Of a stretch of DNA of 64,000 bases, positions 42,026-62,947 are shown piece by piece (position 1 is the first letter of the stretch; the number at the start of each line of letters is the position of its first letter). The notes beneath the pieces are model-generated. The model was given only the letters and a program-made list of their open reading frames with translations, was not told the origin of the DNA and did not search any database. This DNA is from Pseudomonas brassicacearum. Its GTDB lineage: Bacteria > Pseudomonadota > Gammaproteobacteria > Pseudomonadales > Pseudomonadaceae. The DNA is taken from contig NZ_CP045701.2 in NCBI RefSeq assembly GCF_009601685.2, positions 4,154,001 through 4,218,000 on the forward strand, written 5' to 3'. Both the position numbers and the translations under genes were made by a program.

Positions 42026-43069
42026 TCAGCGCAACGCTTGTTTTCGCTCGAGTCTGGAGCGATAGCTACCAGGCGGCACCCCAAAAAAATCCCGGAAACG
42101 ACGCTGGAAGTGCGGGGAGCTGACGAAGCCTGTCGCCACGGCGATTTCGGTCACGGATCGATTGGTTTGCTGGATAAGCTGACGGGCACGGGTCAAGCGC
42201 AGCTCCAAGTAATAGCGTGTGGGGGTCGCACCGAGAAAACTGCAGAACCGCCGCTCCAACTGTCGTTTGGAAATCTTGACGCACGCCGCCAGCTCATCGA
42301 TGGTCAACGGCTCTTCTACGTTTTGCCACATCAGCTCCAACGCCAGCTTGAGGCTTTCCGGCAGCGTCGGGTCGGTCTCGACGAAGACCGGAGGCAAGTC
42401 TGTCGCATCATCGCCTGACTCGTCACAGCGAAGAATTTCCTCGATGGCGCCCACCAGCGCCGCCCCGCCCGTCTGGCGAATCAACTGGAGCATCATGCGC
42501 AGCGAACTGTTGGCGCCCGCGCAACTGACCCGCTCCCGATCAACGACATAGGCCCGGTTGGACACCTTCACGTGGGGGAACACCTCCGCCATCATGGCGC
42601 GGCTTTCCGGGTGGACAGCGCATTCGAAACCGTCCAGCAGATTGGCATCGGCCACGAAGAAGGCGCCGTTCCACAGCCCTCCCAGTATCGCCCCGGACGC
42701 CGCGTTGGCGCGCAGCTTGCGTCGCAGCAAGGGATGGCCTTGCAACTTCACGCGAAAGCCTCCGGCGACAATCAGCACGTCCTGGTTTTCCGGCATCTGC
42801 GCCAGTTCGATGTCGGTCGAGATGACAATGCCCAGGTCGCTCGTCACTTGCCCACCCGAAACCCCTACCGTGAGCACCTTGTAGAGGGGCATGTCGCTCA
42901 TCAGGTTGGCGGTCACCAGCGCGTCCACCGCACCGGTGAAGGACATCATCGAGAAATTATCCATCAATACAAACGCGACGCGGATCGGTGCCTGGCTGGC
43001 AGGCGCCGATCCGAGTGGTCGATAAGCCATGTTCTTGTTTTTGAGTACGCTCTCGAATGCGCTTGGCAT
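42026..43069 (-). CDS. GlxA family AraC-type regulator
   Basis: The product has 347 residues. Residues 28-200 form the DJ-1/PfpI-like sensor (VAFVLMDNFSMMSFTGAVDAL and GGLWNGAFFVADANLLDG), and residues 240-340 hold an AraC helix-turn-helix (LTIDELAACVKISKRQLERRF and VTEIAVATGFVSSPHFQRRF). The sensor type matches regulators of betaine, carnitine and arginine catabolism in Pseudomonas (GbdR, CdhR, ArgR). It is divergent from the chemoreceptor at 43363 and stands at the left border of the betaine-type island, so a role in its control is plausible but not shown. Confidence 0.88.
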   Translation of the reverse strand: MPSAFESVLKNKNMAYRPLGSAPASQAPIRVAFVLMDNFSMMSFTGAVDALVTANLMSDMPLYKVLTVGVSGGQVTSDLGIVISTDIELAQMPENQDVLIVAGGFRVKLQGHPLLRRKLRANAASGAILGGLWNGAFFVADANLLDGFECAVHPESRAMMAEVFPHVKVSNRAYVVDRERVSCAGANSSLRMMLQLIRQTGGAALVGAIEEILRCDESGDDATDLPPVFVETDPTLPESLKLALELMWQNVEEPLTIDELAACVKISKRQLERRFCSFLGATPTRYYLELRLTRARQLIQQTNRSVTEIAVATGFVSSPHFQRRFRDFFGVPPGSYRSRLERKQALR

Positions 43070-43362
43070 AGGGCCTCGTTAATACATTAAAGACGATGAG
43101 GATTGACGGCACGCGGGTGTCTTGAACCACCGGGCGAAGGAACAGAGCAAACCACACTATCTTCCAGACTAGTCAAACCGGCTGCAATCACCCCAGCGCC
43201 CCCTACTGGTCGACCCGCGCCAAAATGGCAAGCCTCAAGTGCCTACGACTTTGGTCGATACACTGGCAGTAGGTATGGGCGCTTTTCCCTTTAAGAGACT
43301 CGCAACGCCAACCACAGCTGTTTCCGCCGTTCCAACACTTAAAATATTCCGCGGGAGAAGTC

Positions 43363-45306
43363 ATGAATATCAAACAGAAGCTGACATGGGCGTTCGCGGC
43401 CATCGCCTGCCTTCCGGTTATCCTGGTGGCGGTGCTTGTCGTGCTGAACCTGCGCGACGCCGCAAAAGCCAACTTCCTGGACAGCAGCGGACGTGAAATC
43501 CGTCAGATCGACAACGGCATGAAGCAGTTCTTCGATGGCATCATGCAAAACGTCGAATTCTTCGCCAAGGATCCGCGGATCGTCGCGGCCAAGGACCTGA
43601 AAAACTATTCCGGTGCCGACGCCGCACAAATTCCTCTCCCCGAGAACAACAAACAGCTTTTGGATATCTTTGACAGATTCGCCAAGAGCCACCCGACCAC
43701 AGCCTATCTTTCCCTGGGCCTGGAGGACGGTGGCTACGCCAGTTGGCCGGATGATCCGAAGATTTCCAACTACGATCCACGCGTGCGCCCCTGGTACAAG
43801 GCGGCCATCGCCAATCCGGGCACTACCGTGAAGACCGATGCCTATTACTGGGCGCCGGACGATGTGTCGCTGATCGGCATCGTGCACACCGTCGCCGATG
43901 CTGGCGGCAAGCTGGTGGGCGTGGTCGGCCTGGACGTATCGCTCAAGCAACTGACCGAACTGGTCAAGAACATCAAGCTGGGCGAGAGCGGCTACCTGAT
44001 GCTGGTGGAAGCCAACGGCAACGTCCTGGTGGACCCTGCCGATGCCAAGCACAACTTCAAGCCGCTGGCCGACCTGGGCCCCAACTATGCCGAACTGGCC
44101 AAGAGCAGCGATGGCGTGACCCAGATCGAGATTGACGGCGTGTCTTACATGGCCAACGTGGTCACTTCCAAAGACCTGGGCTGGCGCTTCATCGGCCTGA
44201 TCAAACGCGATGAAGTGATGGCCGAGGCCTCGAGCCTGACTTGGCTGATCGCCGCCATCGCCGCCGCGCTGGCAGTGGTCTTCGCCGTGGTGGGCGCCAG
44301 TTTCGCCAGCGTGATCGTGCGGCCGATCCGCGGCGTTGCCAACGGCCTGCAGGAAATCGCCGAAGGTGAAGGCGACCTCACCCGCAAGCTCTCGGTGCAA
44401 GGCAAGGACGAAACCGCCACCCTGGCAAGCTGGTTCAACCAGTTCCTGGGCATGATCGCTCAACTGGTGCAGCGCATCGGTAGTGCCTCATCCGATCTGC
44501 AAACCGCCGCGGCCGACACCAGCGAAGTGGCCCAGAACATGAACGAAGCGGCCGGGCGCCAGCGCCAGGCCGTGGAACTGGTGAGCACCGCGTTCAACGA
44601 AATGGTCGCCACCGCCAACGAAGTGGCCCGCTCGTGCAGCCAGGCCGCGTCCAGTGCGGACGAAGGCTATCGCGATGTACACGATGGCCAGCATCACATC
44701 GGCGAAGCCACCGGCAGCGTGATGAAACTGAGCGAGGACCTGCAACAGTCGACCCAGACCATGCAGGCGCTGGAACAGGACAGCAAGAACATCAACACCA
44801 TCCTCGACACCATTCGCTCCATCGCCGAGCAGACCAACCTGTTGGCGCTGAACGCCGCCATCGAAGCCGCACGGGCCGGCGATCAAGGTCGCGGGTTTGC
44901 CGTGGTGGCCGACGAAGTCCGGGCCCTGGCGCGGCGCACCGCCGACTCCACCGGCGAGATCGACAGCCTGCTGGGCAACCTGGCACGGCGCACCCAGGAA
45001 GTGACCCAACAGATGCAAAGCAGCCTGCAGGTGTCGCACACCAGTGTGGAACGCATCCAGCAGGCCCGCGACAGCTTCGACAAGATCCGCAACTCGGTGG
45101 ACTCGATCCGCGACCAGAATACGCAGATCGCCACAGCGGCAGAGGAGCAGCACCAGGTGGCCGAAGACATCAACCGGCACATCGCGCAGATCCATGCCGA
45201 TGCCCAGTTGGTCGAGGAATTCGCCCACTCGGCGCAGACCGGCTCGGGGCGTCTGACGGATATTTCCGGGCAGCTCAAAGGCTTGGTGGGGCGCTTCAAG
45301 TTCTAA
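43363..45306 (+). CDS. Methyl-accepting chemotaxis protein with dCache_1 sensor
   Basis: The product has 647 residues: a membrane helix at about 10-30, a periplasmic double-Cache domain at 35-280, a second helix near 290-312, HAMP, and the signalling domain with the tip [18 protein letters not shown]. The ligand-pocket motif YxxxxRxWY is present (YDPRVRPWY), as is the distal aspartate (GVVGLDVSL). The Y-x-D found in amino-acid sensors is replaced by [10 protein letters not shown] tryptophan there could suit a quaternary amine, as in McpX of Sinorhizobium. This is inference. It borders the betaine-type island. Confidence 0.92.
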
Positions 45307-45378
45307 GCAGTAGTGCCTGGAAGAGCCAAGGATGGCTCTGTGCGGATCACGAGTCGGCGATAAGGAAAATCGCGGTAC

Positions 45379-46242
45379 CTACCCTTTCGCCTTGACCGCA
45401 TACAGACCACCGATGACCACCAGGCTCGCCCCTACGACTGTCCATAGGTCCGGCAATTCGCCAAACACGAACAGGCCGATGAACGTGGCGAATACCAGCA
45501 GTGTGTAATTGAAAGGCTGGAGCGTGGCCGCCGTCGCATATCTGAGCGCCTGGATAAGTAAAAGCTGGGCCACTACACCTGTGGAAGAAAGCACCCCCAT
45601 CAAGACCCACTCCATCGGACTCGGCGCAACCCATCCGGGAAGGCCGGGAACCGTGACGGCCATTGCGCCGAAAAAACCCATGTAGAGCATGTTCGTAGCA
45701 AACGAATCGTCGCGGCTAATCCGCCGCGTCAGCACATTGAACACGGCGAACCCCAGCGCGGACATCAGGGGAATCAACGCTGCGAGTTCGAAGACACCCG
45801 TGCCGGGGCGAAGGATAACCAACGTGCCCAGGAAGCCTATCGCAGCGGCAATCCATCGACGCACGCCAATGAACTCACCCAGAAATGCTCCCGCCAAGGC
45901 CAGCGTCATCAGGGGAAAAACCGCATACAAGGCATGCATCTCAGCCAAGCCAAGATAACGCAGGCCAAATCCAAACAAAGCGATTTCTCCCACCCCAACC
46001 AGGGCACGAGTTATCTGGAGAAAAGGATGCTGGCTTCGACATGCGGTTCGCAAACCTCCCTGATAGATGCCATAGCCAACGGCAAACGCAAGGAATACCC
46101 AATAGCGCACCATGACGAGTTGGGCGACGGGCAGATCCCTTACCAGCACTTTGGTGACGCCATCCTGGCTCGCAAAGATCAGCATGGACAAAAGACACAA
46201 GGCGATGCCTAGCTGAGGCCGCGGCGCATCATGATCACGCAC
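45379..46242 (-). CDS. EamA/DMT family transporter
   Basis: Ten hydrophobic helices in two EamA repeats are seen (for example IALCLLSMLIFASQDGVTKVL and WVLMGVLSSTGVVAQLLLIQ). The start is uncertain. A GTG at 46242 gives 287 residues and overlaps the end of the upstream RHH gene by eight bases, with AAGGA upstream; the open frame reaches an ATG at 46287. DMT proteins export small metabolites. It is the last gene of a dddQ-like - RHH - EamA overlapping operon, which suggests export of a product or toxic intermediate. Confidence 0.85.
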   Translation of the reverse strand: MRDHDAPRPQLGIALCLLSMLIFASQDGVTKVLVRDLPVAQLVMVRYWVFLAFAVGYGIYQGGLRTACRSQHPFLQITRALVGVGEIALFGFGLRYLGLAEMHALYAVFPLMTLALAGAFLGEFIGVRRWIAAAIGFLGTLVILRPGTGVFELAALIPLMSALGFAVFNVLTRRISRDDSFATNMLYMGFFGAMAVTVPGLPGWVAPSPMEWVLMGVLSSTGVVAQLLLIQALRYATAATLQPFNYTLLVFATFIGLFVFGELPDLWTVVGASLVVIGGLYAVKAKG

Positions 46243-46519
46243 CGTGCACACTATCCTTGGTCGATGCCATCGGGGCGGTATCGTCACGCGGGCCGTTATC
46301 CCTGCGCCGTCGTGCGATGCTATGGCGCAACGTATCCCTTTCCAGCGCCTCGACCGCTACAAACGCTTCAACGTCGGCCCCGGCCTCCACTTTTTCAATG
46401 AAATGCAAAATCGCCTTCTTCATGAACCAATGTGAGGTGCGATCCAACTTGACCGCCGCCGACTTCAGCCTGGCACGCGTATCCCCATCCAATTTGATGC
46501 CCAGTGTGGTTACCGACAT
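46235..46519 (-). CDS. Stand-alone PutA-type ribbon-helix-helix protein
   Basis: The product has 94 residues. Its first 45 residues (TTLGIKLDGDTRARLKSAA then DRTSHWFMKKAILHFIEKVE) match the DNA-binding domain found at the N-terminus of PutA, the bifunctional proline oxidase and repressor. The enzymatic domains are absent and the rest is a charged tail. It probably represses or activates its own operon. It starts inside the 3' end of the DddQ-like gene (10-base overlap) and overlaps the EamA gene. Confidence 0.82.
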   Translation of the reverse strand: MSVTTLGIKLDGDTRARLKSAAVKLDRTSHWFMKKAILHFIEKVEAGADVEAFVAVEALERDTLRHSIARRRRDNGPRDDTAPMASTKDSVHGA

Positions 46520-47178
46520 AGCTCAGCCTCTGAATGAATCAAACCCCATAAAGCAAGAAGTGGAACGCACGTCGATCTCATTGCATGCATGCAAGAAGGC
46601 GGATTGAAGACCACGCCCCCCGCGCCAGGACTCCACCAACCCACGTCCTCCCGGTACCAGTCGCCCGGCGAAAGAACGAGATAGAACTCGGCAGGAGGGT
46701 GTTGGTGATAGGGGTAGCAAGTCTCGGGCATCATGAGCGCCAGCCCCAAGGTCAAGGTGGAACACTCAAAAAGCGCTCCCGGACCGGCGATCATCCCGTG
46801 GCGATGCCGCTCCACGAAAGCGCTGTCCTGGTCGGCCCGAGCTTGGCGGTTTATCCAGTGAAGATGGGGCAAGAGCGTCATCAACGCATCCCGTATCGAC
46901 GCCAGATGCGGACTGCTCCTGGGTGCAGCATTGAGTGCCTGGGATAAACTGGGTGCCAGGCACTCTGGTAATGCACGTGGTGTTTCCAATGTTTGTTTCA
47001 AGGTCCATCGGGCAGCATCCAGGACACTCGCATGCGCCTGTATCGAATCCGGCTCTCCATTGCGAGCCTGGTTCAACAGCGCCGCATGAAGCGCTCGTTG
47101 AAGCGACTTCCCGCGACTCAAGACATCCGATTCCAACAACACATGCCCGGTATTGTTTACCATCATTTTCAACCCCAT
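46510..47178 (-). CDS. DddQ-like cupin, DMSP lyase family
   Basis: The product has 222 residues with a C-terminal cupin. The metal and active-site residues of Ruegeria DddQ (from memory Y120, H123, H125, E129, Y131, H163) are matched in identity and spacing by Y155, H158, H160, E164, Y166 and H198 (in CYPYHQHPPAEFYLVLS and PPSCMHAM). DddQ cleaves dimethylsulfoniopropionate to dimethyl sulfide and acrylate. Terrestrial pseudomonads carry such homologues, whose substrate may differ. The start is uncertain: ATG at 47178, with ATGs four and five codons further in also possible. First gene of a three-gene overlapping operon. Confidence 0.78.
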   Translation of the reverse strand: MGLKMMVNNTGHVLLESDVLSRGKSLQRALHAALLNQARNGEPDSIQAHASVLDAARWTLKQTLETPRALPECLAPSLSQALNAAPRSSPHLASIRDALMTLLPHLHWINRQARADQDSAFVERHRHGMIAGPGALFECSTLTLGLALMMPETCYPYHQHPPAEFYLVLSPGDWYREDVGWWSPGAGGVVFNPPSCMHAMRSTCVPLLALWGLIHSEAELCR

Positions 47179-47311: not shown

Positions 47312-48211
47312 TTACTGGGACGGTGTAGCGGAAGCGGTCTGGCTACCGAACATCGCTTCGAAGCGAGGCTTGTTGGCGGCGTAGTACTCTGCAACGACCT
47401 TGTCTGCCGAGCTGTCACGGGCGGTGGACATCAACTTCTCAAGGTCAGCCTTGGGGATCTTGAAGTTGGCGAAGAACCGGGCTACATCGGGATGCTCGGC
47501 GCTGAAGCCTTTGCGGGCAACCGCGTGAATTTGCTCGGCACCACCGAAAATCTGCTTCGGATCATCCAGGTAGCGCAGCGGCCACTTGGCAAACATCCAG
47601 TGCGGGCTCCAGGCATTGATCAACGACCATTTGTCACGCTTGAGGTTGCGATCGAGCTCACTCAACATTCCAGACTCTGAAGAAGCGATCATCTTGTAAC
47701 CATCGAGTTTATATTCCTTGATGGCCTTTTCCGTGAGTTTGTATTGACCGTTACCCACTTCCGAAGTCAGGATCTTGCCGCCCAGTTTCTCCCGCACTTC
47801 TGGCTTATTAAGATCTTCGACGCTGGCAATCTCGCTGGTTGGAATAGAAGTAGGCACCGCCATGCCGATCCGACCTTCATACAGCACGCCGAGGTCTTCG
47901 AGCTTGTCCTGGTATTTGTCGTAGAACGCCTTGTGAGTGCTCGGCAGCCAGACCATTGGGATCAGGTCGATATTGCCGTTAGCCAAAGCCTGGAACTGAA
48001 TGCCAATATCGGCGAGTACCAATTTGACCGGTTGCTTCAAGTGGTCGCGCAATGCCGTATCTGCCAGCTTTACAGCGATTTCCGTATCCGACCAATTCAC
48101 CCATCCAATACGGATAGGCGTGGGTTCCTCGGCGTGAGCCATCAGGCTACCGGCGGCCATCGCCAGACCCGCAAGCCAACCGATACAAGTTTTACTGGAC
48201 AACGTCATCAT
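47312..48211 (-). CDS. Betaine-type ABC transporter substrate-binding protein (OpuAC family)
   Basis: The product has 299 residues with a signal peptide (CIGWLAGLAMAAGSLMAHA). The mature protein has the OpuAC/ProX fold with tryptophans placed as in quaternary-amine binders: GWVNWSD, PMVWLPS and NAWSPHWMFAKW. GGAG precedes the ATG at 48211 by seven bases. It would deliver glycine betaine, proline betaine, choline or a related compound to a permease. The permease and ATPase are 7 kb away at 55130-57198. Confidence 0.88.
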   Translation of the reverse strand: MMTLSSKTCIGWLAGLAMAAGSLMAHAEEPTPIRIGWVNWSDTEIAVKLADTALRDHLKQPVKLVLADIGIQFQALANGNIDLIPMVWLPSTHKAFYDKYQDKLEDLGVLYEGRIGMAVPTSIPTSEIASVEDLNKPEVREKLGGKILTSEVGNGQYKLTEKAIKEYKLDGYKMIASSESGMLSELDRNLKRDKWSLINAWSPHWMFAKWPLRYLDDPKQIFGGAEQIHAVARKGFSAEHPDVARFFANFKIPKADLEKLMSTARDSSADKVVAEYYAANKPRFEAMFGSQTASATPSQ

Positions 48212-48411: not shown

Positions 48412-49347
48412 TCACAATGCGTTTTCGAGCGCCGGCAAGGCCTCGAACAAATCCGCCACCCACATGTAATCCGCCACTTGGGCAATCGGCGCTTCAGCGT
48501 CCTGGTTGATCGCAACGATGACCTTTGAGCCACTCATGCCCGCCAAATGTTGAATGGCGCCGCTGATACCCGCGGCGATGTAAAGCTCTGGCGCGACGAT
48601 TTTCCCCGTCTGCCCGACCTGCAAATCATTGGGGGCAAAACCCGAATCCACCGCGGCACGCGAGGCCCCTACGGCACCACCGAGCTTGTCGGCCACACGC
48701 TCGATCAAGGCGAAATGTTCCTTGGATTGCATGCCGCGGCCACCGGAAACAACGACGCGGGCACTCGACAAATCGGGCCTTTCACTGGCCGTCAGTTGTT
48801 CGCTCACGAAACGCACGTTGCTTGCGCTTTGCCCGCCCTCCACCGCCACCACTTCGCAACGATGTTCATGGGACAAGGCCTGGGCGAACGCCGAGGCACG
48901 AACGGTGAGCAACTTGATCGGGTCAAGGGACTGCACCGTGGCGATGGCATTGCCGGCATAAATGGGGCGCTGGAAGGTGTCCGCCGAGACAATCTGGGTG
49001 ACGTCGGAGAGCATGCCGACATCCAGGCTGGCCGCGACCCGTGGCAACACATTGCGGCCCATGCTGCTGGCGTCGGCAACGACGTGCGTATACCCCTCGA
49101 CCACCAGTGAAGTGATCAGCGGCTGGGCATTTTCAGCCAGGGCGTTTTCGAACATCGCACCTTGTGCGAGCAGCACCCGGTCCAGGCCCTGGGCCAGTGC
49201 TGCCTGTTGCGCCACTGCCGACGCGTCCGTCCCGCCCATCACCAGCAAATCCGTCTCGGTCCCCAGTGCCATGGCGGCGGTCACGGCACTCCACGTACCT
49301 GCCGTCAGCTGACCTGCACTGTGCTCGGCGATCACCAATGTGCGCAT
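48412..49347 (-). CDS. etfA: Electron transfer flavoprotein alpha subunit
   Basis: The ATG at 49347 gives 311 residues, overlapping the etfB stop by one base (TGATG). The C-terminal FAD-binding region is typical: VVSGGRGMQSKEHF, then VGQTGKIVAPELYIAAGISGAIQHLAG and AINQDAEAPIAQVADYMWV. EtfA/B accept electrons from flavin dehydrogenases and pass them to the quinone pool. This extra ETF pair, divergent from a demethylase, matches the dgcAB-etfAB and stc clusters of betaine degradation. Confidence 0.93.
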   Translation of the reverse strand: MRTLVIAEHSAGQLTAGTWSAVTAAMALGTETDLLVMGGTDASAVAQQAALAQGLDRVLLAQGAMFENALAENAQPLITSLVVEGYTHVVADASSMGRNVLPRVAASLDVGMLSDVTQIVSADTFQRPIYAGNAIATVQSLDPIKLLTVRASAFAQALSHEHRCEVVAVEGGQSASNVRFVSEQLTASERPDLSSARVVVSGGRGMQSKEHFALIERVADKLGGAVGASRAAVDSGFAPNDLQVGQTGKIVAPELYIAAGISGAIQHLAGMSGSKVIVAINQDAEAPIAQVADYMWVADLFEALPALENAL

Positions 49348-50096
49348 CAAATCACCCCCGCAACATTTTTCAGTTTATCCACCAGCTCGGCCACCGAACC
49401 GACGTTAATGCCCGCTTTGCGCACCGCAGGCGGGACAACCCCTAACAATCGAACGTGTTCCTTCACGCTCGCACCCAAGGTGTCAGCGGCAATGATTTGC
49501 AGCGGTTTTTTCTTGGCTTTCATGATGTTCGGCAACGAGGCGTAGCGCGGTTGGTTCAGGCGCAAGTCGCAGGTCACCACAGCCGGCATCGCGAGGGCGA
49601 GCACCTGGCTGCCACCGTCCACCTCACGCTCGACCACCCATTGCCCTTCAACGTGATTGATTGCAGAGGCGTAAGTGGCCTGACCGCTGCCAATCAGCTG
49701 CGCGACCATTTGCCCGACCTGGTTGTTCTCCTGGTCGATCGCCTGTTTGCCGAACAGGATCAGTTGCGGCTTTTCCTGATCGATCACTTTGCTCAGGTAC
49801 TTGGCGACGTTGAGCGGCTCGAGTAGCGCACTCGTCTCGACCAGCAGCGCCCGATCCGCGCCGAGTGCCAAAGCCGTGCGCAGTTGCTCCTGGGCGGCCG
49901 AAGTGCCCACCGAGACCACCACCACTTCGGATACCAGCCCCTTCTCCTTGAGGCGAATCGCCTCTTCCACCGCGATTTCGCAGAACGGATTCAAGGCCAT
50001 CTTCACGCCATTGAGCTCAACGTCTGAACCGTCGGCTTTCACCCGGACTTTTACATTCGGGTCGATGGCGCGTTTTACCGCAACGAGCACTTTCAT
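49347..50096 (-). CDS. etfB: Electron transfer flavoprotein beta subunit
   Basis: The ATG at 50096 (MKVLVAVKRAIDPNVKVRVK) is the family start and gives 249 residues; an ATG four codons earlier is also open. Conserved stretches are NPFCEIAVEEAIRLKE and LFGKQAIDQENNQVGQMVA. It is first in the etfB-etfA pair and divergent from the DgcA/StcD-like demethylase across 211 bases that hold two candidate operators. Confidence 0.93.
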   Translation of the reverse strand: MKVLVAVKRAIDPNVKVRVKADGSDVELNGVKMALNPFCEIAVEEAIRLKEKGLVSEVVVVSVGTSAAQEQLRTALALGADRALLVETSALLEPLNVAKYLSKVIDQEKPQLILFGKQAIDQENNQVGQMVAQLIGSGQATYASAINHVEGQWVVEREVDGGSQVLALAMPAVVTCDLRLNQPRYASLPNIMKAKKKPLQIIAADTLGASVKEHVRLLGVVPPAVRKAGINVGSVAELVDKLKNVAGVI

Positions 50097-50210
50097 AGTT
50101 CTTTGCATAGCCCCCTTGCACTCTGGATCGATGCGGGATGACCGACCGGATATGCCGGATCACCCCTGTTTCGACTGGATGGTAATCCTGGTTTTTCCGC
50201 CACGCAAGAA

Positions 50211-50243
50211 AAATGTACACCTGTGTCTCAATCATTGACACAC
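50211..50243. promoter_or_regulatory. Candidate operators in the etfB/demethylase divergent promoter
   Basis: AAATGTACACCTG (50211-50223) is identical over 13 bases to the left part of the TetR palindrome at 54718. It overlaps the arms TGTGTC (50222-50227) and GACACA (50237-50242), a separate inverted repeat with a nine-base spacer. Both lie between divergent catabolic genes. Confidence 0.55.
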
Positions 50244-50307
50244 ATGAACATTCAACTTACCGTTATGTCAAACCAAGCCTGATGTTCTGTTCCCGGAGCG
50301 CAACACC

Positions 50308-52344: not shown

Positions 52345-52348
52345 AGTC

Positions 52349-54665: not shown

Positions 54666-54717
54666 CCTGCTTACCTTCTTTAAATATGCGTAGCGCGAAT
54701 GTACTCGGATGACCGTC

Positions 54718-54739
54718 AAATGTACACCTGAGTACATTT
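54718..54739. promoter_or_regulatory. TetR operator candidate (22-bp palindrome)
   Basis: The arms AAATGTAC (54718-54725) and GTACATTT (54732-54739) are exact complements across ACCTGA. A further half-site GAATGTACTC lies 20 bases closer to the gene (from 54698). It sits upstream of the TetR start. Confidence 0.75.
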
Positions 54740-55129
54740 GATTGACTTTCTCGACTTAGACTTCGTTGAAGTTGCAGATCATTAATGACAAGAACTCATG
54801 AGTCGCGGACATAAAATGATTTGTCAGCAAAAGGCACCTGAATAACCATCTCCCACAGGCAACGGACTCCAAACCAAAACAACAACGAGCCGCCATCATG
54901 AATCTTGCAGTGCACACCTCTGAAAGACACTCGACACCCGGCCAAAGAATGCCGGGGCGACTGGCTTTGACACACGCTTCTTCTGTTACTCATCCCCTGC
55001 CCAAATTTCGATAACTGCTTACGCGACGCCTCGCGCCGTCGCTTTGTGTTGCCTGCAAAACCTGGCACACGAAGCCGCGTCCGGGCGGTTGCTGGCGTGC
55101 TGTTTCTTTCCATCAGCCGGATTAGTGAT
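54740..55129. other. 390-base divergent promoter region of the TetR and ABC permease genes
   Basis: No gene or REP was found. Short repeats such as AAGACACTCGACACCC and TTTGACACACG lie near 54920 and 54966; the TTGACACA core resembles the inverted repeat arm GACACA at 50237. Confidence 0.45.
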
Positions 55130-55978
55130 ATGTGGATTACACAAGAGAAGCTTCCACTGGGCGAATACATCGCCCGGTATGTCGAATGGTTGACTCAACA
55201 TGGCGCCGATATTTTCGACGCCATATCGTTATCCTTGTCTGGCGTCATCACCGCATTGACCAACGCGCTCCTTTGGTTCAACCCCTTGGCGTTGATCGCC
55301 GTATTTGCCCTGCTGGCCTATTACATCCAACGCAAGGTGAGCCTCACCCTCTTCGTGGCCCTCTCGTTCCTGCTGATCTTCAATCTCGGTTACTGGCAGG
55401 AGACCATGGAGACCCTTGCCCAAGTGACCTTCGCCACACTCGTGTGCGTAGTCATCGGCGTACCGCTGGGCATCGTCGCGGCGCATCGACCCTGGTTCTA
55501 TATGGCCTTGCGGCCAGTCCTCGACCTGATGCAGACCGTGCCCACCTTCGTCTATCTGATCCCTACCCTGACCCTTTTCGGCCTGGGAGTGGTCCCAGGC
55601 CTGATATCCACCGTGGTATTCGCCATCGCCGCCCCTATTCGCCTGACCTACCTGGGCATCTGTGATGTACCCGAAGAGTTGATGGATGCCGGCAAGGCCT
55701 TTGGCTGTTCGCGCCGCCAATTGTTGGCGCGCATCGAACTGCCCCACGCCATGCCCAGCATCGCCGCCGGCATTACCCAGTGCATCATGCTGTCGCTGTC
55801 CATGGTGGTGATCGCCGCACTGGTGGGTGCCGACGGCCTGGGCAAACCCGTGGTCAATGCGCTGAACACCGCCGATATCTCGATGGGTTTTGAAGCCGGC
55901 CTGGCGATCGTGCTGCTGGCCATCATCCTCGACCGAATCTGCAAACAACGTGAAGCCGTGAAAAGAGGTGACGTATGA
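55130..55978 (+). CDS. Betaine/proline-type ABC transporter permease (ProW-like)
   Basis: The ATG at 55130 (MWITQEKLPLGEYIARYVEWL) gives 282 residues. About six helices and the permease EAA-like loop DAGKAFGCSRRQLLARIELP (near residue 190) are typical of the ProW/OpuAB/ChoW group. The long open frame upstream has no clear start. It overlaps the ATPase gene by four bases (ATGA). It would form an importer with the ATPase and, probably, the binding protein at 47312. Confidence 0.9.
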   Translation: MWITQEKLPLGEYIARYVEWLTQHGADIFDAISLSLSGVITALTNALLWFNPLALIAVFALLAYYIQRKVSLTLFVALSFLLIFNLGYWQETMETLAQVTFATLVCVVIGVPLGIVAAHRPWFYMALRPVLDLMQTVPTFVYLIPTLTLFGLGVVPGLISTVVFAIAAPIRLTYLGICDVPEELMDAGKAFGCSRRQLLARIELPHAMPSIAAGITQCIMLSLSMVVIAALVGADGLGKPVVNALNTADISMGFEAGLAIVLLAIILDRICKQREAVKRGDV

Positions 55979-57198
55979 GCATCATCCGTTTTGAAGACGT
56001 CGACGTCATCTTCTCTGCCCGTCCGAAGCCCGCCCTGGATCTACTCGACCAAGGTTTTTCGCGCCCGGAGATTCTTCAGAAAACCGGTTTGATCGTCGGC
56101 GTGGAGAAAGCCAACCTGGAGATCAACAAGGGGGAAATCTGCGTGCTCATGGGCCTGTCCGGCTCCGGCAAATCCAGCCTGCTGCGCTGCATCAACGGCC
56201 TGAACACCGTCAGCCGCGGCAAGCTGTTCGTCGAACACGAAGGCCGGCAGATCGACATCGCCTCCTGTACCCCCGCCGAACTGAAGATGATGCGCACCCA
56301 GCGCATCGCCATGGTGTTCCAGAAGTTCGCCCTGATGCCCTGGCTGACGGTGCGCGAGAACATCAGTTTCGGTCTGGAAATGCAGGGCCGGTCGGAAAAG
56401 GAATGCCGCACACTGGTGGATGAAAAACTCGAACTGGTGGGCCTGACCCAGTGGCGCAACAAGAAGCCTGACGAATTGTCCGGCGGCATGCAGCAACGGG
56501 TCGGCCTGGCCCGCGCCCTGGCGATGGACGCCGACATCCTGCTGATGGACGAACCGTTCTCGGCCCTCGACCCGTTGATTCGCCAAGGCCTGCAAGATGA
56601 GTTGCTCGATCTGCAGCGCAAATTGCACAAGACCATCGTGTTCGTCAGCCATGACCTGGACGAAGCCCTGAAGCTGGGCACGCGCATCGCCATCATGAAA
56701 GACGGCAAGATCATCCAGTACAGCAAACCCGAAGAGATCGTGCTGAACCCAGCCGACGACTACGTGCGTAACTTCGTCGCCCACACCAACCCGTTGAATG
56801 TGCTGTGTGCGAAAAGCTTGATGACCCCGCTGGAGCAGTGCGTCGTCGCCCGCGGCGAATATTGCCTGGATACTGCTCAAAACCTATGGATGATAGTGAA
56901 CCCGCAGCGTCATTTGACCAGCCTTCGAAAAGGCGTCACGACAGCGCACGTCCAACCATGGAGTCCGGCCCAGCAAATCGAGACCTTGGCACGACAACCG
57001 ACTTGCGTGCCACCGGCGACCACCATGCGCGACGCCCTGCAGATTCGCTACGAAACGGGCCACCCCCTGATCGTGCAGGACGAGGCCGGTACCGTCCTGG
57101 GCATATTGGGCGATGGCGAACTGTATCGGGCACTGCTGGGGCACAACCTGTCGCACCCCACGCTTTCTGAACCCGCAAGAGAATCTTCGGTGGCTTGA
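55975..57198 (+). CDS. Betaine/proline-type ABC transporter ATPase (ProV-like)
   Basis: The product has 407 residues: Walker A GLSGSGKSSL (near residue 59), Q-loop VFQKFALMPW, signature LSGGMQQRVGLARAL, Walker B ILLMDEPFSALDP, and switch histidine in VFVSHDLDEA. The C-terminal 120 residues replace the usual pair of CBS domains with a degenerate form (DALQIRYETGHPLIVQDEAG looks like one CBS remnant). Length and layout match ProV/OpuAA/ChoV. It is coupled to the permease. Confidence 0.9.
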   Translation: MSIIRFEDVDVIFSARPKPALDLLDQGFSRPEILQKTGLIVGVEKANLEINKGEICVLMGLSGSGKSSLLRCINGLNTVSRGKLFVEHEGRQIDIASCTPAELKMMRTQRIAMVFQKFALMPWLTVRENISFGLEMQGRSEKECRTLVDEKLELVGLTQWRNKKPDELSGGMQQRVGLARALAMDADILLMDEPFSALDPLIRQGLQDELLDLQRKLHKTIVFVSHDLDEALKLGTRIAIMKDGKIIQYSKPEEIVLNPADDYVRNFVAHTNPLNVLCAKSLMTPLEQCVVARGEYCLDTAQNLWMIVNPQRHLTSLRKGVTTAHVQPWSPAQQIETLARQPTCVPPATTMRDALQIRYETGHPLIVQDEAGTVLGILGDGELYRALLGHNLSHPTLSEPARESSVA

Positions 57199-57228
57199 TT
57201 CACCAGGCAGCAACCTCGGAATACACCT

Positions 57229-58167
57229 ATGCAACCCAGCGTTATCGATAAAAAGGTCAAGGGCTATCGGCGGTTGATACCGTCGATGACGGCGTTGCTG
57301 GAATTCGAAGCCGTGGCGCGATTGGCCAGTTTCACCCTGGCCGCCCAAGAACTGGGCGTGACCCAGGCGGCCGTCAGCAAGCAAATCCGATTGTTGGAAG
57401 ATACCCTGGGGACCAAGCTGTTCCATCGACTTCATCGGGCGATCAAGCTGACTCATGAAGGCTACGTCCTGCACCTGGTCGTCGCAGAGTCCATTCATCG
57501 CATGGCCAGTGTCTTCGACAAAATCGCCGAGGGCATTGGTGAGCAAGAGATCACCATTGCCTGCACGGAGGCGTTCTCTCACTTGAGGATACTCCCCAGA
57601 TTGATCGCTCTGCGCACGCTGCAACCGAAGTTGAAATTGCGCCTGATGACGCAGCAGGTCTCGCCAAGTTCATATCGGGATGACGTCGACCTGGCCATCC
57701 GTTTCGGCAATGGAAAATGGGAAGATGGCAGTTCGGTTTTCCTGTTCGATGAAGAAGTGTTTCCCGTTTGCTCGCCAGCCTGGCTCGCCGCCAACCCGGC
57801 ACCTTCAGCCATTGCCGATTTTCTGGACACGGCGCTGATTGACTCCGATTCCACCCTTGAAGGCTGGATGACCTGGAACCGTTGGTGCCGGGAACTGGGC
57901 GATATGCGCCCCAAGCTCAACTATTCATTTCGCTGCAGTTCCTACAACGATGCGATCCAGGCGGCCATTCAAGGCCACGGCATTGCACTGGGATGGAGTC
58001 GACTGATCGCGCACCGCCTCAACAGTGGCGAACTGATCAGAATCACGCCCTACGTGGTCAAGCCAAAAGACGCTTATTACCTGGTCATTCCGAGCGGTCG
58101 AAAACTTGAGCCCATTACCCAGGCACTGGTCGATTGGCTGCGCGATGACAGTTATCTAACTAACTGA
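57229..58167 (+). CDS. LysR family regulator, GcvA-like
   Basis: The product has 312 residues with helix-turn-helix SFTLAAQELGVTQAAVSKQIRL-type sequence (residues 36-57) in the GcvA/AmpR style. It is transcribed in the same direction as the permease and ATPase and stands 31 bases after them. A perfect T-N11-A LysR box lies between its stop codon and the Rieske gene, so it probably controls the oxygenase and reductase. Confidence 0.9.
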   Translation: MQPSVIDKKVKGYRRLIPSMTALLEFEAVARLASFTLAAQELGVTQAAVSKQIRLLEDTLGTKLFHRLHRAIKLTHEGYVLHLVVAESIHRMASVFDKIAEGIGEQEITIACTEAFSHLRILPRLIALRTLQPKLKLRLMTQQVSPSSYRDDVDLAIRFGNGKWEDGSSVFLFDEEVFPVCSPAWLAANPAPSAIADFLDTALIDSDSTLEGWMTWNRWCRELGDMRPKLNYSFRCSSYNDAIQAAIQGHGIALGWSRLIAHRLNSGELIRITPYVVKPKDAYYLVIPSGRKLEPITQALVDWLRDDSYLTN

Positions 58168-58195
58168 TAATCAACAGTTTTTAGTCAGCTTTCAG

Positions 58196-58214
58196 GCATA
58201 ACGCAAAGTTATGC
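58196..58214. promoter_or_regulatory. LysR box upstream of the Rieske gene
   Basis: GCATAAC (58196-58202) and GTTATGC (58208-58214) are exact complements across GCAAA. The core fits T-N11-A, the LysR consensus. It lies 92 bases before the Rieske start. Confidence 0.7.
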
Positions 58215-58305
58215 GAGCGTGAAAATAAAGCGCGTTGACGGTCTTATTCCACCTTTCCAAACTGTGCTCGCCGCCTGATCAATTTGAATGTGAGCGAGAC
58301 CTATA

Positions 58306-59562
58306 ATGACAATCAATGCCGTGAAGACCCATCGTGAACTTCTGGCCGACCGCACGCCCGGCCATGGCATGCCAAGCGGTTTGTTTGGTCGCCAGGATAT
58401 TTTTGAAACCGACGTCGATATCTTTTTCACCAAACACTGGATTCTGGTGGGGGTCACCAGCGACATCCCCGAACCCGGTGATGTCTCGACCATCGACATT
58501 GGCAAATCCTCCATCCTCCTGGTGCGCGACGATGACGAGCATGTGCAGGCGTTTCGCAACGTTTGCCGGCACCGCGGGGCTCGCTTGAAACAGGCCGGCA
58601 AGTCGACGGTGGGCATGCTGGTCTGTCCCTACCACCAGTGGAGCTACGACCTGGACGGCAGCCTGAAACATGCGGCACACATGGGCCAGGACTTCGACCC
58701 TAACTGCAAAAGCCTGATCCCTGTGCACACTCGAGTCATCGGCACCCATGTCTTCGTCTGCCTGGGCGACGAACCACCAGAAGACATCCTGTACCTTGAC
58801 CAGGTCATGACACCGCGTTTCGCCCAATACGACATTGCCCACTCGAAGATCGCCTACGAATCGGAAATCATCGAGAACGGCAATTGGAAACTGGTAATCG
58901 AGAATAACCGCGAGTGTTATCACTGCGCCGCCACCCACCCGGAATTGACCGCGTCTTTCCTGCCCGAAGATTTCGGTTTCTGCACCGATGGGCTGGGCGA
59001 GGATTCACTACAGGCACTGGCCGAATATCACCGCCGCAATGCCGACACCAAGACCAACTGGGAGAACGAAGGCTATATCTGCGATGCCGTCGAACACTTG
59101 GGTGAAGATGCCGTGACCCAGTTCCGCTCGCAACGACTGGCCATTGCCGGCAACGGCGAATCCCAGACCCTGGACACCCGCGTGGCGTGCACCCGGCTGT
59201 TCGGCGACCTCACCCGCCGCGACTTGGGCGACGTGCATCTTTGGACGCACAACTCCTGGACCCATGTCATGAGCGACCATGCCGTGGTCTCCTACATCAT
59301 CCCCCTGGCGCCCGATAAAACCCTGGTGCGCACCAAATGGCTGGTCCATGCCGATGCCGTCGAAGGCGTCGACTACCAGGTGGATAAGCTGACCGAAGTC
59401 TGGGCGGCGACCAACCTGCAAGACGCCAACCTCGTCGGCATCACCCACAGCGGCACCCAGGATCCCGCCTACACACCCGGGCCGTTCTCAGCCTTTACCG
59501 AAACCTATGTCGACCAGTTCTCTCGCTGGTACGCGGCGCGTCTGGCCGCCCATGGCGTGTGA
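58306..59562 (+). CDS. Rieske non-heme iron oxygenase, GbcA/Stc2-like
   Basis: The product has 418 residues. The Rieske cluster ligands are C87-x-H89 (VCRHRGA) and, 17 residues on, C-x2-H (VCPYHQWSY). The mononuclear iron site has the H-x4-H pattern in RECYHCAATHPEL; the third ligand was not pinned down. The layout matches the oxygenase GbcA of glycine betaine demethylation and Stc2 of stachydrine demethylation. It removes one methyl group as formaldehyde. The reductase gene follows after nine bases. Confidence 0.9.
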   Translation: MTINAVKTHRELLADRTPGHGMPSGLFGRQDIFETDVDIFFTKHWILVGVTSDIPEPGDVSTIDIGKSSILLVRDDDEHVQAFRNVCRHRGARLKQAGKSTVGMLVCPYHQWSYDLDGSLKHAAHMGQDFDPNCKSLIPVHTRVIGTHVFVCLGDEPPEDILYLDQVMTPRFAQYDIAHSKIAYESEIIENGNWKLVIENNRECYHCAATHPELTASFLPEDFGFCTDGLGEDSLQALAEYHRRNADTKTNWENEGYICDAVEHLGEDAVTQFRSQRLAIAGNGESQTLDTRVACTRLFGDLTRRDLGDVHLWTHNSWTHVMSDHAVVSYIIPLAPDKTLVRTKWLVHADAVEGVDYQVDKLTEVWAATNLQDANLVGITHSGTQDPAYTPGPFSAFTETYVDQFSRWYAARLAAHGV

Positions 59563-59571
59563 GGAATGAAC

Positions 59572-60708
59572 ATGACGACTTACGAAAACCCGGCACGCCC
59601 TGCAACTGCCAGCGTGGTTCAACGTTTTACCGACCCGACCACCTGGAGCACGTTCGGCTCGCAGTGGCACAGCGGTGAACAAAAAACCCTGCAATGCTGC
59701 GCTGTGCGCCAGGAAACCCATGACGTAAAAACCTTCATTTTTCGTTGTGCGGACTTCAGCGCGCTGAGCTTCGAGCCCGGTCAATTCATCACGATCTCAC
59801 CGGTCATTGGCGGGCAGAGCCTCTTGCGCTGCTACACCCTGTCGTCCTCCCCCACCCGGCCCTTTGCGTTTTCCATTACCGTCAAGCGCGTACCGGGGGG
59901 AACGGTATCGAACTGGCTGCATGACCACCTCAAGCCCGGCGACAGCCTGAAGGCGTCCGGCCCCGCGGGCAGCTTTACACCGGTCGGCCATCCTGCGACC
60001 AAGTTGTTGTACCTGTCGGCCGGTTCCGGCGTAACGCCCCTGATGTCCATGACCCGGGCCGCCTGCGACATGGCGGGCAACCTCGACATCGTTTTTGTGC
60101 ACAGCGCCCGTACGCCCAACGACGTCATCTTCCACACAGAACTGACGCGTATGCAGGCCGCCATGCCGGGGCTGCGGGTCATCAGTGTTTGCGAAGGACC
60201 TGGCGACACCGCTCAATGGCAGCAACCGATAGGCCGGCTCGATTTGTCGTTGCTGAGCCAGCACGTGCCGGACTACAAGGAACGGGAAATCTTTACTTGC
60301 GGTCCCCTGGGCTACATGGAAGCGGTCAAGTCACTGCTCAGGGAAGCGGCGTTCGATTTCGCCCACTACCATCAGGAAAGCTTCGACATCACCGCACTGA
60401 ATGAAGAACCGTTGATCGAGCAGGCCGCTACGCTCAATCAGCAGGACGTCTTCACCGTGACCCTGTCGCGCTCCGGAAAAACCTTCAGCATGCCGGGCAA
60501 CCAGACCGTGCTGGCCGCCGCAAAGAAGGCCGGCGCCATCGTGCCCTCCTCTTGCAGCCAGGGCGTTTGTGGCACCTGCAAGACCGCCCTGCTACAGGGT
60601 ACGGTCGAGATGAATCACAACGGCGGTATCCGGCAACGGGAAATCGACAAAGGCCTGCGCTTGCTGTGCTGCAGCAAGCCCACTTCTGACCTGGTCCTGG
60701 ATCTTTAG
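59572..60708 (+). CDS. Ferredoxin-NAD(P) reductase partner of the Rieske oxygenase (GbcB-like)
   Basis: The start ATG at 59572 suits GAGGA six bases upstream; an ATG two codons earlier (59566) is possible. The 378 residues hold an FAD domain (LRCYTLSSSP then GSGVTPLMSM), an NAD(P) domain (IFTCGPLGYMEAVKSLL) and a C-terminal plant-type [2Fe-2S] ferredoxin with C-x4-C-x2-C (CSQGVCGTC) and a distal cysteine (LRLLCCSKP). It passes electrons to the Rieske enzyme. Confidence 0.92.
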   Translation: MTTYENPARPATASVVQRFTDPTTWSTFGSQWHSGEQKTLQCCAVRQETHDVKTFIFRCADFSALSFEPGQFITISPVIGGQSLLRCYTLSSSPTRPFAFSITVKRVPGGTVSNWLHDHLKPGDSLKASGPAGSFTPVGHPATKLLYLSAGSGVTPLMSMTRAACDMAGNLDIVFVHSARTPNDVIFHTELTRMQAAMPGLRVISVCEGPGDTAQWQQPIGRLDLSLLSQHVPDYKEREIFTCGPLGYMEAVKSLLREAAFDFAHYHQESFDITALNEEPLIEQAATLNQQDVFTVTLSRSGKTFSMPGNQTVLAAAKKAGAIVPSSCSQGVCGTCKTALLQGTVEMNHNGGIRQREIDKGLRLLCCSKPTSDLVLDL

Positions 60709-60795
60709 CCTTGCATCGCGAATAAGGTAGTCACTGCACACTGGCTTCTGCACAATCTCCGTGCGCTTACCCTAATAAGACAGTGGCCCAGCCTG

Positions 60796-61710
60796 ATGAA
60801 ACTGCAACCCTTGCCGCCCCTCAACAGCCTGGTGGCATTCGAGGCCGCCGCCCGCCACTTGAGCTTCACCGTGGCGGCGCGCGAACTGAACGTCACCCAA
60901 GGCGCCATCAGCCGCCAGGTACGCTTGCTCGAAGACTACCTGGGCACGGCACTGTTCACCCGCACGACCCGCGAAATCAATCTCACCGCCACCGGCAGCC
61001 AGTATTACGAAAGCGTGCGCGATACGTTGCAGCAAATCGCCCAAGCCACGGCAGGCATACGTCACTGGCAAGGCGCGCAACAAGTCACCGTCGTCACCAG
61101 TACGGCGATGGCGTCGTTGTGGCTGCTGCCGCTGGTGTCGCAGTTCCAACGCCAGAATGAGGAGATTGACCTGCGCATCATCGCGACGGATCAAGTCAGT
61201 GATTTTTCCCGCCTGGACTGTGACCTGGCGCTGTATTACTGCAGCACGCCACCGAAAAACATGAAAGTCACGCCGCTGTTCAACGAAGAGATTTTCCCGG
61301 TGTGCAGCCCCGCCTATATGGCGCAGCACCCAGGGATCGAGACGCTGGAGCAGTTGGGGGGATGCACCTGGTTGTGGCTGGAAGACCAGCACCGGGACTG
61401 GATTGGCTGGAAAGAATGGTTCCAGCGCCTTGGCTACCCAGCGCCAGAACCTCGACGGCGCATCAATATCAACAACTACGCCATGCTGATCCAGTCGGCC
61501 CTGGCTGGCCAAGGGATCGCCCTGGCCTGGTCGGGCCTGCTCAGCAATCACTTGCAAACCGGCAACCTCGTGCGGCCGACGCAAGCCATCCTGCGCACCG
61601 ACGCGCAGTTCTGCCTGCTGGAACCTCAAGGCCGGGCCCCGAACAGGCAAAGCGTCAACCGTTTCCGCCAGTGGCTGATGGCACATCTGGCAGAGACGAT
61701 CGACGCTTGA
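60796..61710 (+). CDS. LysR family regulator, GcvA-like
   Basis: The product has 304 residues with helix-turn-helix LSFTVAARELNVTQGAISRQ (residues 25-44). It is close in layout to the LysR at 57229, so the Rieske operon is bracketed by two LysR genes. It starts 87 bases after the reductase. No clear T-N11-A box was found in front of it. Confidence 0.9.
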   Translation: MKLQPLPPLNSLVAFEAAARHLSFTVAARELNVTQGAISRQVRLLEDYLGTALFTRTTREINLTATGSQYYESVRDTLQQIAQATAGIRHWQGAQQVTVVTSTAMASLWLLPLVSQFQRQNEEIDLRIIATDQVSDFSRLDCDLALYYCSTPPKNMKVTPLFNEEIFPVCSPAYMAQHPGIETLEQLGGCTWLWLEDQHRDWIGWKEWFQRLGYPAPEPRRRININNYAMLIQSALAGQGIALAWSGLLSNHLQTGNLVRPTQAILRTDAQFCLLEPQGRAPNRQSVNRFRQWLMAHLAETIDA

Positions 61711-61723
61711 TGCGCCAGGCGAC

Positions 61724-62164
61724 CTAGCCGACTTTCACATTCATGGTGATGCGCGCCGTGAAGACCTTCACCCCAGCCTCGTCGAAGATCTCGACCGGGA
61801 CAATCTTGTCGCCCGAAGTCTGCCAGTCGATTTCGCTACCGTCGGCAATCGCATGGATGGCGGTCTTGGCCTTGGCCAAGTATTCGACAGTCATGCCTTT
61901 GGGAATCCAGCGCGCGCCGCTGGGGATGGACACCTCGGTCATCATGCCGCCCGCCAGTTCTGCCGCGTTGCACAGCGCAATCGCGTGAACGGACGCCAGG
62001 TGATTGGTGATCTCCTTGCGAAACGGCACCTTCACTTCACCGCGACCAGGGGTCAACACAGAAATTTCCGGGGTGATGGTGCCGAAATACGGTGCCATCT
62101 GGCAGGCCATATTGCTGAAAGCGGACGGGCCAACGCTTTGGTACATGCTGAGAGTCTGGCTCAT
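61724..62164 (-). CDS. Hotdog-fold protein (DUF4442-type thioesterase-like)
   Basis: The product has 146 residues with a hotdog fold of the DUF4442 group (NHLASVHAIALCNAAELAGGMM and GMTVEYLAKAKTAIHA). These resemble acyl-CoA thioesterases; the substrate is unknown. It is divergent from the TetR gene at 62327 across a strong palindrome. Confidence 0.82.
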   Translation of the reverse strand: MSQTLSMYQSVGPSAFSNMACQMAPYFGTITPEISVLTPGRGEVKVPFRKEITNHLASVHAIALCNAAELAGGMMTEVSIPSGARWIPKGMTVEYLAKAKTAIHAIADGSEIDWQTSGDKIVPVEIFDEAGVKVFTARITMNVKVG

Positions 62165-62213
62165 GGGGATCTCGGGTCAGGTGGATTGAAGTCACGGACA
62201 GAACATCACTCCA

Positions 62214-62252
62214 TTACAGAATATTGCTCTGTTACAGAACATTATTCTGTAA
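62214..62252. promoter_or_regulatory. TetR operator candidate between the hotdog and TetR genes
   Basis: TTACAGAA (62232-62239) and TTCTGTAA (62245-62252) are exact complements across CATTA. A further TTACAGAA copy lies 18 bases to the left (62214-62221). The site is in the divergent promoter. Confidence 0.75.
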
Positions 62253-62326
62253 ATACCCACCCTGTCAATCGCTCGTGCCGAGCCGTCGTTTCAATTACCA
62301 TGGCCCCTTTTTGCCTGGGCCGAAAA

Positions 62327-62947
62327 ATGGAACCTGTCGATCTCCTCGAGCGCTGCTACCCAGGGCGCCGTGCCGAGTCCAAGCGGCACATCCTGCGATG
62401 TGCCCTGGCGTTGTTTAATCAACAGGGCATAGAAGCGACCACCATCGACATCATCCGTGCCGAAAGCCAGATGAGCGTGGGGGCCATTTATCACCATTTC
62501 GTTAACAAGGAAGGCTTGGTCGCGGCGTTGTACATGACCGCCCTGGATGACCAGGCACAGCTCAGGGACCGCTACCTCAGCGCTGTCACGTCGACCAGGG
62601 AATGGGTCCACGCCTTGGTGTTCAGCTACGTGGATTGGGTGGTCAGCCAACCCGATTGGGCGCGGTTCCAGTACCAGGCTCGCTTTGCAGTCGCACGCAG
62701 CAGCTTCAACGAGCGGCTCGCCGAAGCGAATGTCGCCAGGAACGCCGCGCTCAAGCAATGGTTCAGCGACCCTGCCCACCAGCAGGATTTGCAGGACCTG
62801 CCTTTTGAGCTGATCCCGTCACTGATCATCGGTTCGGCGGAAAGCTATTGCCGCGCCTGGCTCTCGGCCCGCGTCAAACGCAGCCCGGAAGGCTACCGGC
62901 AGCAACTGGCCGAGGCCGCCTGGCGCGCCGTTGGCGTTGGCGGCTGA
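62327..62947 (+). CDS. TetR family regulator
   Basis: The ATG at 62327 (MEPVDLLERCYPGRRAESK) gives 206 residues; an ATG nine codons earlier is also open. The helix-turn-helix is TIDIIRAESQMSVGAIYHHF near residues 37-56. It probably controls itself and the divergent hotdog gene. Confidence 0.88.
   Translation: MEPVDLLERCYPGRRAESKRHILRCALALFNQQGIEATTIDIIRAESQMSVGAIYHHFVNKEGLVAALYMTALDDQAQLRDRYLSAVTSTREWVHALVFSYVDWVVSQPDWARFQYQARFAVARSSFNERLAEANVARNAALKQWFSDPAHQQDLQDLPFELIPSLIIGSAESYCRAWLSARVKRSPEGYRQQLAEAAWRAVGVGG

Follow-up and report, generated by a model that had tools for sequence, protein, structure and literature searches.

Which betaine is degraded by the gene island at positions 42026 to 62947 of the window, and what is the function within it of a cupin resembling dimethylsulfoniopropionate (DMSP) lyases? 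The window is a stretch of 64,000 nucleotides from Pseudomonas brassicacearum (bases 4154001–4218000 of a single-contig genome of 6.58 Mb), and the original prediction had described this part of it as a betaine-catabolic island with proline betaine (stachydrine) or hydroxyproline betaine as the suggested substrate. Profile searches located every gene family that it had named, close to where it had placed them, together with three proteins of the interval that it had passed over, namely a PF16867 cupin, an EamA permease and a glyoxalase-family protein. We consider it probable that these genes form an island for proline betaines, with a cupin that abstracts the α-proton of a hydroxylated or D-form intermediate. 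This reading builds on gene content, homology, conserved linkage and conserved active-site residues, from which we infer the substrates, the order of the reactions, the partnership with an electron-transfer flavoprotein (Etf) and the reaction of the cupin. The grouping is not a chance arrangement, since much of it is conserved in Rhizobium and among other Pseudomonas. As a type, the island is known already, and what seems new is the role of the cupin and a third clade of Rieske oxygenases.

The substrate assignment starts from the demethylase, a member of the old yellow enzyme (OYE) family. It is 79% and 78% identical to homologues from two Paracoccus loci (L102 and L103; L numbers denote comparison loci), both named HpbA, N-methyl-L-proline N-demethylase, in RefSeq, and 99% identical to P. 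brassicacearum HpbA. A tree of 20 rows placed it within the HpbA clade (support 100/99), which did not include the DgcA-like protein of this genome. The DgcA/StcD-like demethylase of the original prediction is thereby narrowed to a predicted HpbA/StcD-type N-methylproline demethylase, and the proline-betaine substrate, deduced from homology, gains support. A homologue encoded on pSymB of Sinorhizobium meliloti (L104), which we do not equate with stcD, is 78% identical to the window protein and is likewise followed by a PF16867 cupin gene; StcD, also encoded on pSymB, is an N-methylproline demethylase according to the available text of PMC12239276. The demethylase gene is embedded in the following arrangement:

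42026..43069, minus strand: GlxA/GbdR-like AraC-family regulator (DJ-1_PfpI and HTH_18; top NCBIfam model GbdR, 271 bits, below the cut-off of 480)
43363..45306, plus strand: dCache chemoreceptor (dCache_1 and MCPsignal; sensor domain matches PDB 6mni best, with 329 bits)
45379..46287, minus strand: EamA-type permease, start codon uncertain (PF00892; also downstream of the cupin in L002)
46235..46519, minus strand: stand-alone PutA-type ribbon-helix-helix (RHH) protein of 94 aa (PF21775 PutA_1st, 42.7 bits, cut-off 27; overlaps the cupin stop)
46510..47178, minus strand: DMSP-lyase-like (DddQ-type) cupin (PF16867, E 1.4e-34, 119.6 bits, above the gathering cut-off of 27)
47312..48211, minus strand: OpuAC-type betaine-binding protein (PF04069, 1.9e-60; PDB OpuAC 2b4l, 7.4e-43)
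48412..49350, minus strand: EtfA (ETF and ETF_alpha)
49347..50108, minus strand: EtfB (ETF)
50222..50244, no strand: palindrome preceding HpbA, overlaps a TTGACA box and is a candidate operator for TetR (pattern TGTYTY-N3-7-TTGACA)
50308..52344, plus strand: predicted HpbA/StcD-type N-methylproline demethylase, OYE family, probably Etf-linked (Oxidored_FMN and Pyr_redox_2)
52470..52853, plus strand: glyoxalase-family protein (PF00903, 1.6e-5, 25.7 bits, cut-off 20.6)
53186..53971, minus strand: ProC-like pyrroline-carboxylate reductase (P5CR_dimer; TIGR00112, 149 bits, below the cut-off of 197)
53961..54737, minus strand: TetR regulator of the conserved unit (PF00440)
55046..55978, plus strand: choline/betaine ABC permease, ChoW-type (TIGR03416, 423 bits, above the cut-off of 363)
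55975..57198, plus strand: choline/betaine ABC ATPase, ChoV-type (TIGR03415, 580 bits, above the cut-off of 484)
57229..58167, plus strand: LysR regulator (PF03466 and PF00126)
58306..59562, plus strand: group-V-like Rieske oxygenase of a third clade, neither GbcA nor Stc2 (PF00355 and PF00848)
59566..60708, plus strand: GbcB-like Rieske reductase (NF058606, 362 bits, below the cut-off of 500)
60796..61710, plus strand: LysR (GcvA-type) regulator (PF03466; a 91% homologue follows the reductase in L109)
61853..62947, plus strand: TetR regulator, link to the island uncertain (PF00440, 7e-14, at residues 180–226; called start probably too early, the helix-turn-helix beginning at residue 180)

Two of the elements by which an Hpb/Stc-type cluster is recognised, an HpbA/StcD demethylase and a betaine ABC importer (OpuAC, ChoW, ChoV), are present, and the PutA-type RHH protein of the original prediction proved to be a small protein standing alone. 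With the Paracoccus Hpb cluster (L102) the island shares HpbA, a Rieske oxygenase with its reductase, the ABC importer, the ProC-like protein, a TetR regulator, the cupin and EtfBA. It differs in that HpbD and LhpJ-like queries had no match in the window island, in that the two Rieske proteins are 37% identical, and in that the window adds the PutA-type RHH protein, the chemoreceptor and the EamA permease. The Paracoccus pantotrophus cluster comprises hpbD (RefSeq name 4-hydroxyproline betaine 2-epimerase), Rieske, ProC-like, ABC, TetR and hpbA genes, a PF16867 cupin gene and EtfBA; a protein 69% identical to its HpbD is encoded in L042, and one 68% identical to that of L042 in L011. On plasmid pRL12 of Rhizobium johnstonii, the run consists of ABC genes, a ProC-like gene beside a TetR gene, the OYE homologue, the cupin, EtfBA, formaldehyde-oxidation genes, a dihydrodipicolinate synthase (DHDPS) family gene, an aldehyde dehydrogenase, an FAD oxidase, a gene named '4-hydroxyproline epimerase' in RefSeq, and a Rieske gene. 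A putA gene lies about 34 kb past that OYE homologue, and the promoter beside it is reported to respond to proline and not to 4-hydroxyproline (PMC7371648, available part). Genes for S-(hydroxymethyl)glutathione dehydrogenase, S-formylglutathione hydrolase and GFA recur near cupin loci, as expected where N-methyl groups leave as formaldehyde. The DHDPS-family protein, the aldehyde dehydrogenase and the FAD oxidase recur there too, as does the PutA-type RHH protein in homologous clusters.

The first demethylation would fall to the Rieske oxygenase, which the original prediction had called GbcA/Stc2-like. The superfamily was correctly named, but the protein belongs to neither clade: it is 37% identical to GbcA and only 36% to Stc2, which also sets the island apart from the S. 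meliloti stachydrine genes, it lies outside the Stc2 clade, although it may function in the same way as Stc2, and it scores 389 bits on the GbcA equivalog model NF058607 of NCBIfam, below the cut-off of 670. A 16-row tree containing a single GbcA, from which the duplicates L082 and L083, the partial L013 and CntA were left out, joined it with support of 100/100 to a Paraburkholderia nodosa protein (L028, 70%) and to Rhizobium-group proteins (53–57%); the program warned that the junction of this third clade with GbcA may be a long-branch effect. The active-site motif ECYHC is also found in CntA and Stc2. As candidates for the first step, the window holds an oxygenase and a reductase of the right superfamily, but we know of no characterised member of the clade of this oxygenase. 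Third-clade-like proteins, called by identity and not by tree, occur in 22 of the 30 genomes searched (best match 55–98% identical), the other eight being three Pseudomonas, two Paracoccus, a Comamonas metagenome-assembled genome, one Rhizobium and Falsochrobactrum. A LysR gene adjoins the homologous Rieske gene in L028, L047, L048, L068 and L078. Other clusters seem to use other enzymes at this position: Stc2-type Rieske proteins are encoded in those of P. pantotrophus (79%) and Falsochrobactrum (L070, 83%), and in Comamonas L035 and Comamonadaceae L050 an MttB-family gene lies just upstream of HpbA. Since different first-step enzymes seem to pair with the same second step, the third clade is suggested to act as a proline-betaine demethylase.

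The cupin retains the fold of the DMSP lyase DddQ, a helical N-terminal part followed by a cupin barrel, and the six catalytic positions (Y155, H158, H160, E164, Y166 and H198), which are at least 90% conserved over 62 cupin sequences. The corresponding DddQ residues are Tyr120, His123, His125, Glu129, Tyr131 and His163, of which Tyr131, at the metal, has been proposed to start catalysis (PMC4437653, available part). The two proteins differ in sequence (19–24% identity in structural alignments) and in the setting of the window cupin, which is proline-betaine catabolism. Its closest named relative, at 81% identity, is a P. viridiflava record. The N-terminal part is very variable: in comparison with P. 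brassicacearum L002, residues 1–98 are 40% identical with a synonymous divergence (dS) of 1.39, and residues 99–222 are 95% identical with a dS of 0.33, while the other island genes are 93–99% identical (RHH, 83%) with dS up to 0.30. Because dS in residues 1–98 so exceeds that of the rest and of the neighbours, this part looks more like a recombined segment than the product of weak selection or of fast evolution of the cupin. Separately, R. johnstonii encodes an additional PF16867 cupin after EtfA (L101, 15290–15985), more distantly related, and so do some other Rhizobium loci. Of the 80 cupin loci described below, 9 (L048 at 11439–12719, L003, L004, L005, L015, L061, L068, L077 and L081) also contain a gene for an M24-family relative of DddP, a DMSP lyase; the protein of L048 scores 367 bits, below the cut-off of 600.

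Linkage of the cupin to the pathway was assessed in 80 loci, the best 80 of 224 relatives from a cupin-based scan of named genomes. An OYE homologue scoring at least 900 bits, 73–99% identical to the window protein, is present in 37 of them, and in L031 a further one is cut by the contig end. In the Rhizobiales, Paracoccus and Comamonas loci this homologue sits immediately upstream of the cupin; in Pseudomonas L002–L009 the two are separated by the binding-protein gene, in some with EtfBA in between, and in L015 the distance is about 7 kb. HpbA, a related Rieske gene, HpbD, an LhpJ-like gene or MttB accompanies 45 of the 80 cupins, and 51 have at least one of seven markers when a hydroxyproline-type DHDPS or FAD oxidase is added, with marker bit thresholds chosen after the loci had been inspected. 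The same seven markers were found in none of 20 control regions of 20 kb, hand-picked at round coordinates, and not at random, in 14 of the 30 genomes handled. Among 199 genomes of the same genus, HpbA occurs in 32 (79–100% identical in 31, only 51% in G211) and PF16867 in 10; the seven genomes with both have them on one contig within 4.5 kb (hypergeometric P 1.3e-4, uncorrected for relatedness).

On these grounds, we propose the following pathway. The binding protein and the ChoW/ChoV transporter would import plant proline betaines, that is, stachydrine and probably also hydroxylated derivatives. The first N-methyl group would be taken off by the third-clade Rieske oxygenase with its reductase and the second by HpbA, probably with EtfAB, with release of formaldehyde at each step, and the resulting proline would pass to PutA, whose gene lies elsewhere in the genome. 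As an accessory enzyme, the DddQ-like cupin would take the α-proton of a metal-bound carboxylate on a ring substrate, as proposed for DddQ with DMSP. Either a 3-hydroxyproline-type intermediate would be dehydrated to pyrroline-2-carboxylate, which an Ldh_2 or the ProC-like reductase would reduce, or the α-carbon would be inverted. A dehydratase, although less likely than not, ranks slightly ahead of an epimerase in our estimate, and we leave unallotted whatever probability remains beyond dehydratase, epimerase and DMSP lyase.

The Ldh_2 partner favours a dehydratase over an epimerase. Of 14 Pseudomonas HpbA loci that have the cupin, 7 encode an Ldh_2 reductase and 9 the PutA-type RHH protein; of 11 that lack it, none encodes either. 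This comparison is confounded by kinship (OYE 95–99% identical in cupin-positive and 81–94% in cupin-negative loci). The 14 comprise the window, L002–L009 and L107–L111, with L112 dropped for sharing a contig with L004 and L015 in neither group; the 11 come from the 25 HpbA-positive, cupin-negative genomes. Two false Ldh_2 matches have been removed from the counts. In L109–L112 the order is binding protein, Ldh_2, cupin, RHH, and the closest PDB entry to the L002 Ldh_2 protein is DpkA (1wtj), a Δ1-piperideine-2-carboxylate reductase (156 bits; next, 101).

Several observations, besides this kinship, weigh against the proposal. No Ldh_2 gene is present in the window itself; a 59-bit match that resembled a remnant came from an out-of-frame N-terminal extension of the query over the binding-protein gene and was rejected. 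No marker of the seven was found in 29 of the 80 cupin loci, several of which are short contigs. No PF16867 match was found in 25 of the 32 same-genus genomes with HpbA, and Paracoccus aminovorans has HpbA without an adjoining cupin; the cupin is therefore not needed for N-methylproline demethylation and is accessory to the pathway. In P. karstica, P. mediterranea, Pseudomonas PSB18 and Rhizobium CCGE 510, all with HpbA and the cupin, Rieske matches reached only 38–40% and no clear first-step enzyme was found. HpbD and the cupin occur in the same locus in L011, L042 and L102, which excludes the cupin as a plain replacement for HpbD. Finally, the window genome already has, in a hydroxyproline-type cluster at 3.71 Mb (L097) with proline-racemase-family and DHDPS-family genes, an AcnX gene. 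Members of this family elsewhere dehydrate 3-hydroxyproline to Δ1-pyrroline-2-carboxylate, on which a reductase then acts (PMC5144071, available part), and free cis-3-hydroxyproline is for this reason disfavoured as the substrate of the cupin.

A cupin that epimerises the α-carbon of the betaine or of N-methylproline, instead of dehydrating an intermediate, is rather unlikely in our estimate. Abstraction of an α-proton in a substrate without a leaving group would lead to epimerisation, and genes suited to handling D-forms, the FAD oxidase and the epimerase, recur near the cupin. However, the cupin locus L102 already encodes HpbD, a 4-hydroxyproline betaine 2-epimerase by its RefSeq name, and L011 and L042 encode close homologues of it; this coexistence speaks partly against a second epimerase.

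It is improbable that the cupin works as a genuine DMSP lyase and that the island handles DMSP as well. Betaine transporters often carry DMSP, and the PF16867 assignment, the DddQ fold and the six retained catalytic positions would all suit such an enzyme, but in Pseudomonas, Rhizobium and Paracoccus the cupin is accompanied by HpbA and by genes of the hydroxyproline type, and some enzymes of the family have no known function, to judge from the title of Lei et al. 2018 (cited in PMC8163506). The label 'dimethylsulfoniopropionate lyase' is nevertheless carried by these cupins in Rhizobium, Sinorhizobium and Paracoccus database records. We hold as evenly balanced the wider claim that many terrestrial PF16867 'DMSP lyases' are a new (hydroxy)proline-betaine enzyme, applying DddQ chemistry to a pyrrolidine ring by β-elimination or epimerisation, and that the third Rieske clade replaces Stc2 as the first demethylase in Pseudomonas, Paraburkholderia and Rhizobium. 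Titles and abstract openings, among which Kumar 2014, Zhao 2013 and Lei 2018 were not covered, gave no link of DMSP-lyase-like cupins with proline betaine. The tie to proline-betaine catabolism offers a concrete list of substrates for such cupins, and it cautions that the label is poor ground for counting soil and plant bacteria as producers of dimethyl sulfide.

An island dedicated to glycine betaine, choline or carnitine, with the proline-linked genes as passengers, is very unlikely. The transporter exceeds the cut-offs of choline ABC models, the first regulator is GbdR-like, and the Rieske oxygenase and reductase have GbcA and GbcB as their top NCBIfam models; however, the GbdR, GbcA and GbcB scores are all well below cut-off, and the window demethylase belongs to the HpbA clade. 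The GbcA/GbcB and DgcA/DgcB system, whose second step is Etf-linked, uses the same enzyme families. In this genome it occupies a separate locus at about 6.07–6.09 Mb, as a search suggested by the original prediction revealed: a canonical GbcA (809 bits against the cut-off of 670) at 6073027 with an adjoining reductase homologue, and a DgcA-like gene at 6086509, with 37% Rieske and 42% OYE identity to the window proteins. The finding named there as fatal to proline betaine, a Rieske protein clustering with GbcA and no second set in the genome, was not encountered, in a tree with a single GbcA row. A GbcAB glycine-betaine island was rejected on account of these scores and the canonical copy.

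Equally little weight attaches to a non-catalytic sensor or regulator, for which speak one Rhizobium record labelled 'transcriptional regulator', the accessory status of the cupin and its variable N-terminal part, since the catalytic positions are conserved and a Pfam search found no DNA-binding domain in the protein.

The window TetR protein (53961–54737) is 55–65% identical to the TetR proteins encoded divergently from HpbA in Rhizobiales and Paracoccus loci, and the palindrome at 50222–50244 may be its operator. Of 42 regions upstream of HpbA, 28 (five from Pseudomonas, the others from Rhizobiales) have the pattern TGTYTY-N3-7-TTGACA, picked after inspection of the sequences, at −71 to −84, against a mean of 0.005 in shuffles that keep base composition only. 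Many of the regions come from close kin, and the pattern is missing in the remaining 14, including other Pseudomonas, Paracoccus and Comamonas. PDB entry 6mni, matched by the sensor domain of the chemoreceptor, may be, on our assumption, the proline-sensing PscC of P. syringae. Chemoperception of L-Pro and γ-aminobutyrate has been described in P. syringae (PMC9452764, the available text of which does not mention 6mni). A catabolic unit common to Pseudomonas and rhizobia is of ecological interest because stachydrine is exuded by Medicago seeds and has been linked to root colonisation and nodulation (PMC12239276, available text).

Two further observations were made. Near a Rieske gene and betaine ABC genes, L010 encodes an MmgE/PrpD-family protein (6098–7507), of which L125 and L126 have 71% identical homologues close to HpbA. 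Outside the island, positions 34017–38258 of the window hold two convergent, slightly overlapping genes whose products have a Trans_reg_C domain and a STAND-like NTPase region.

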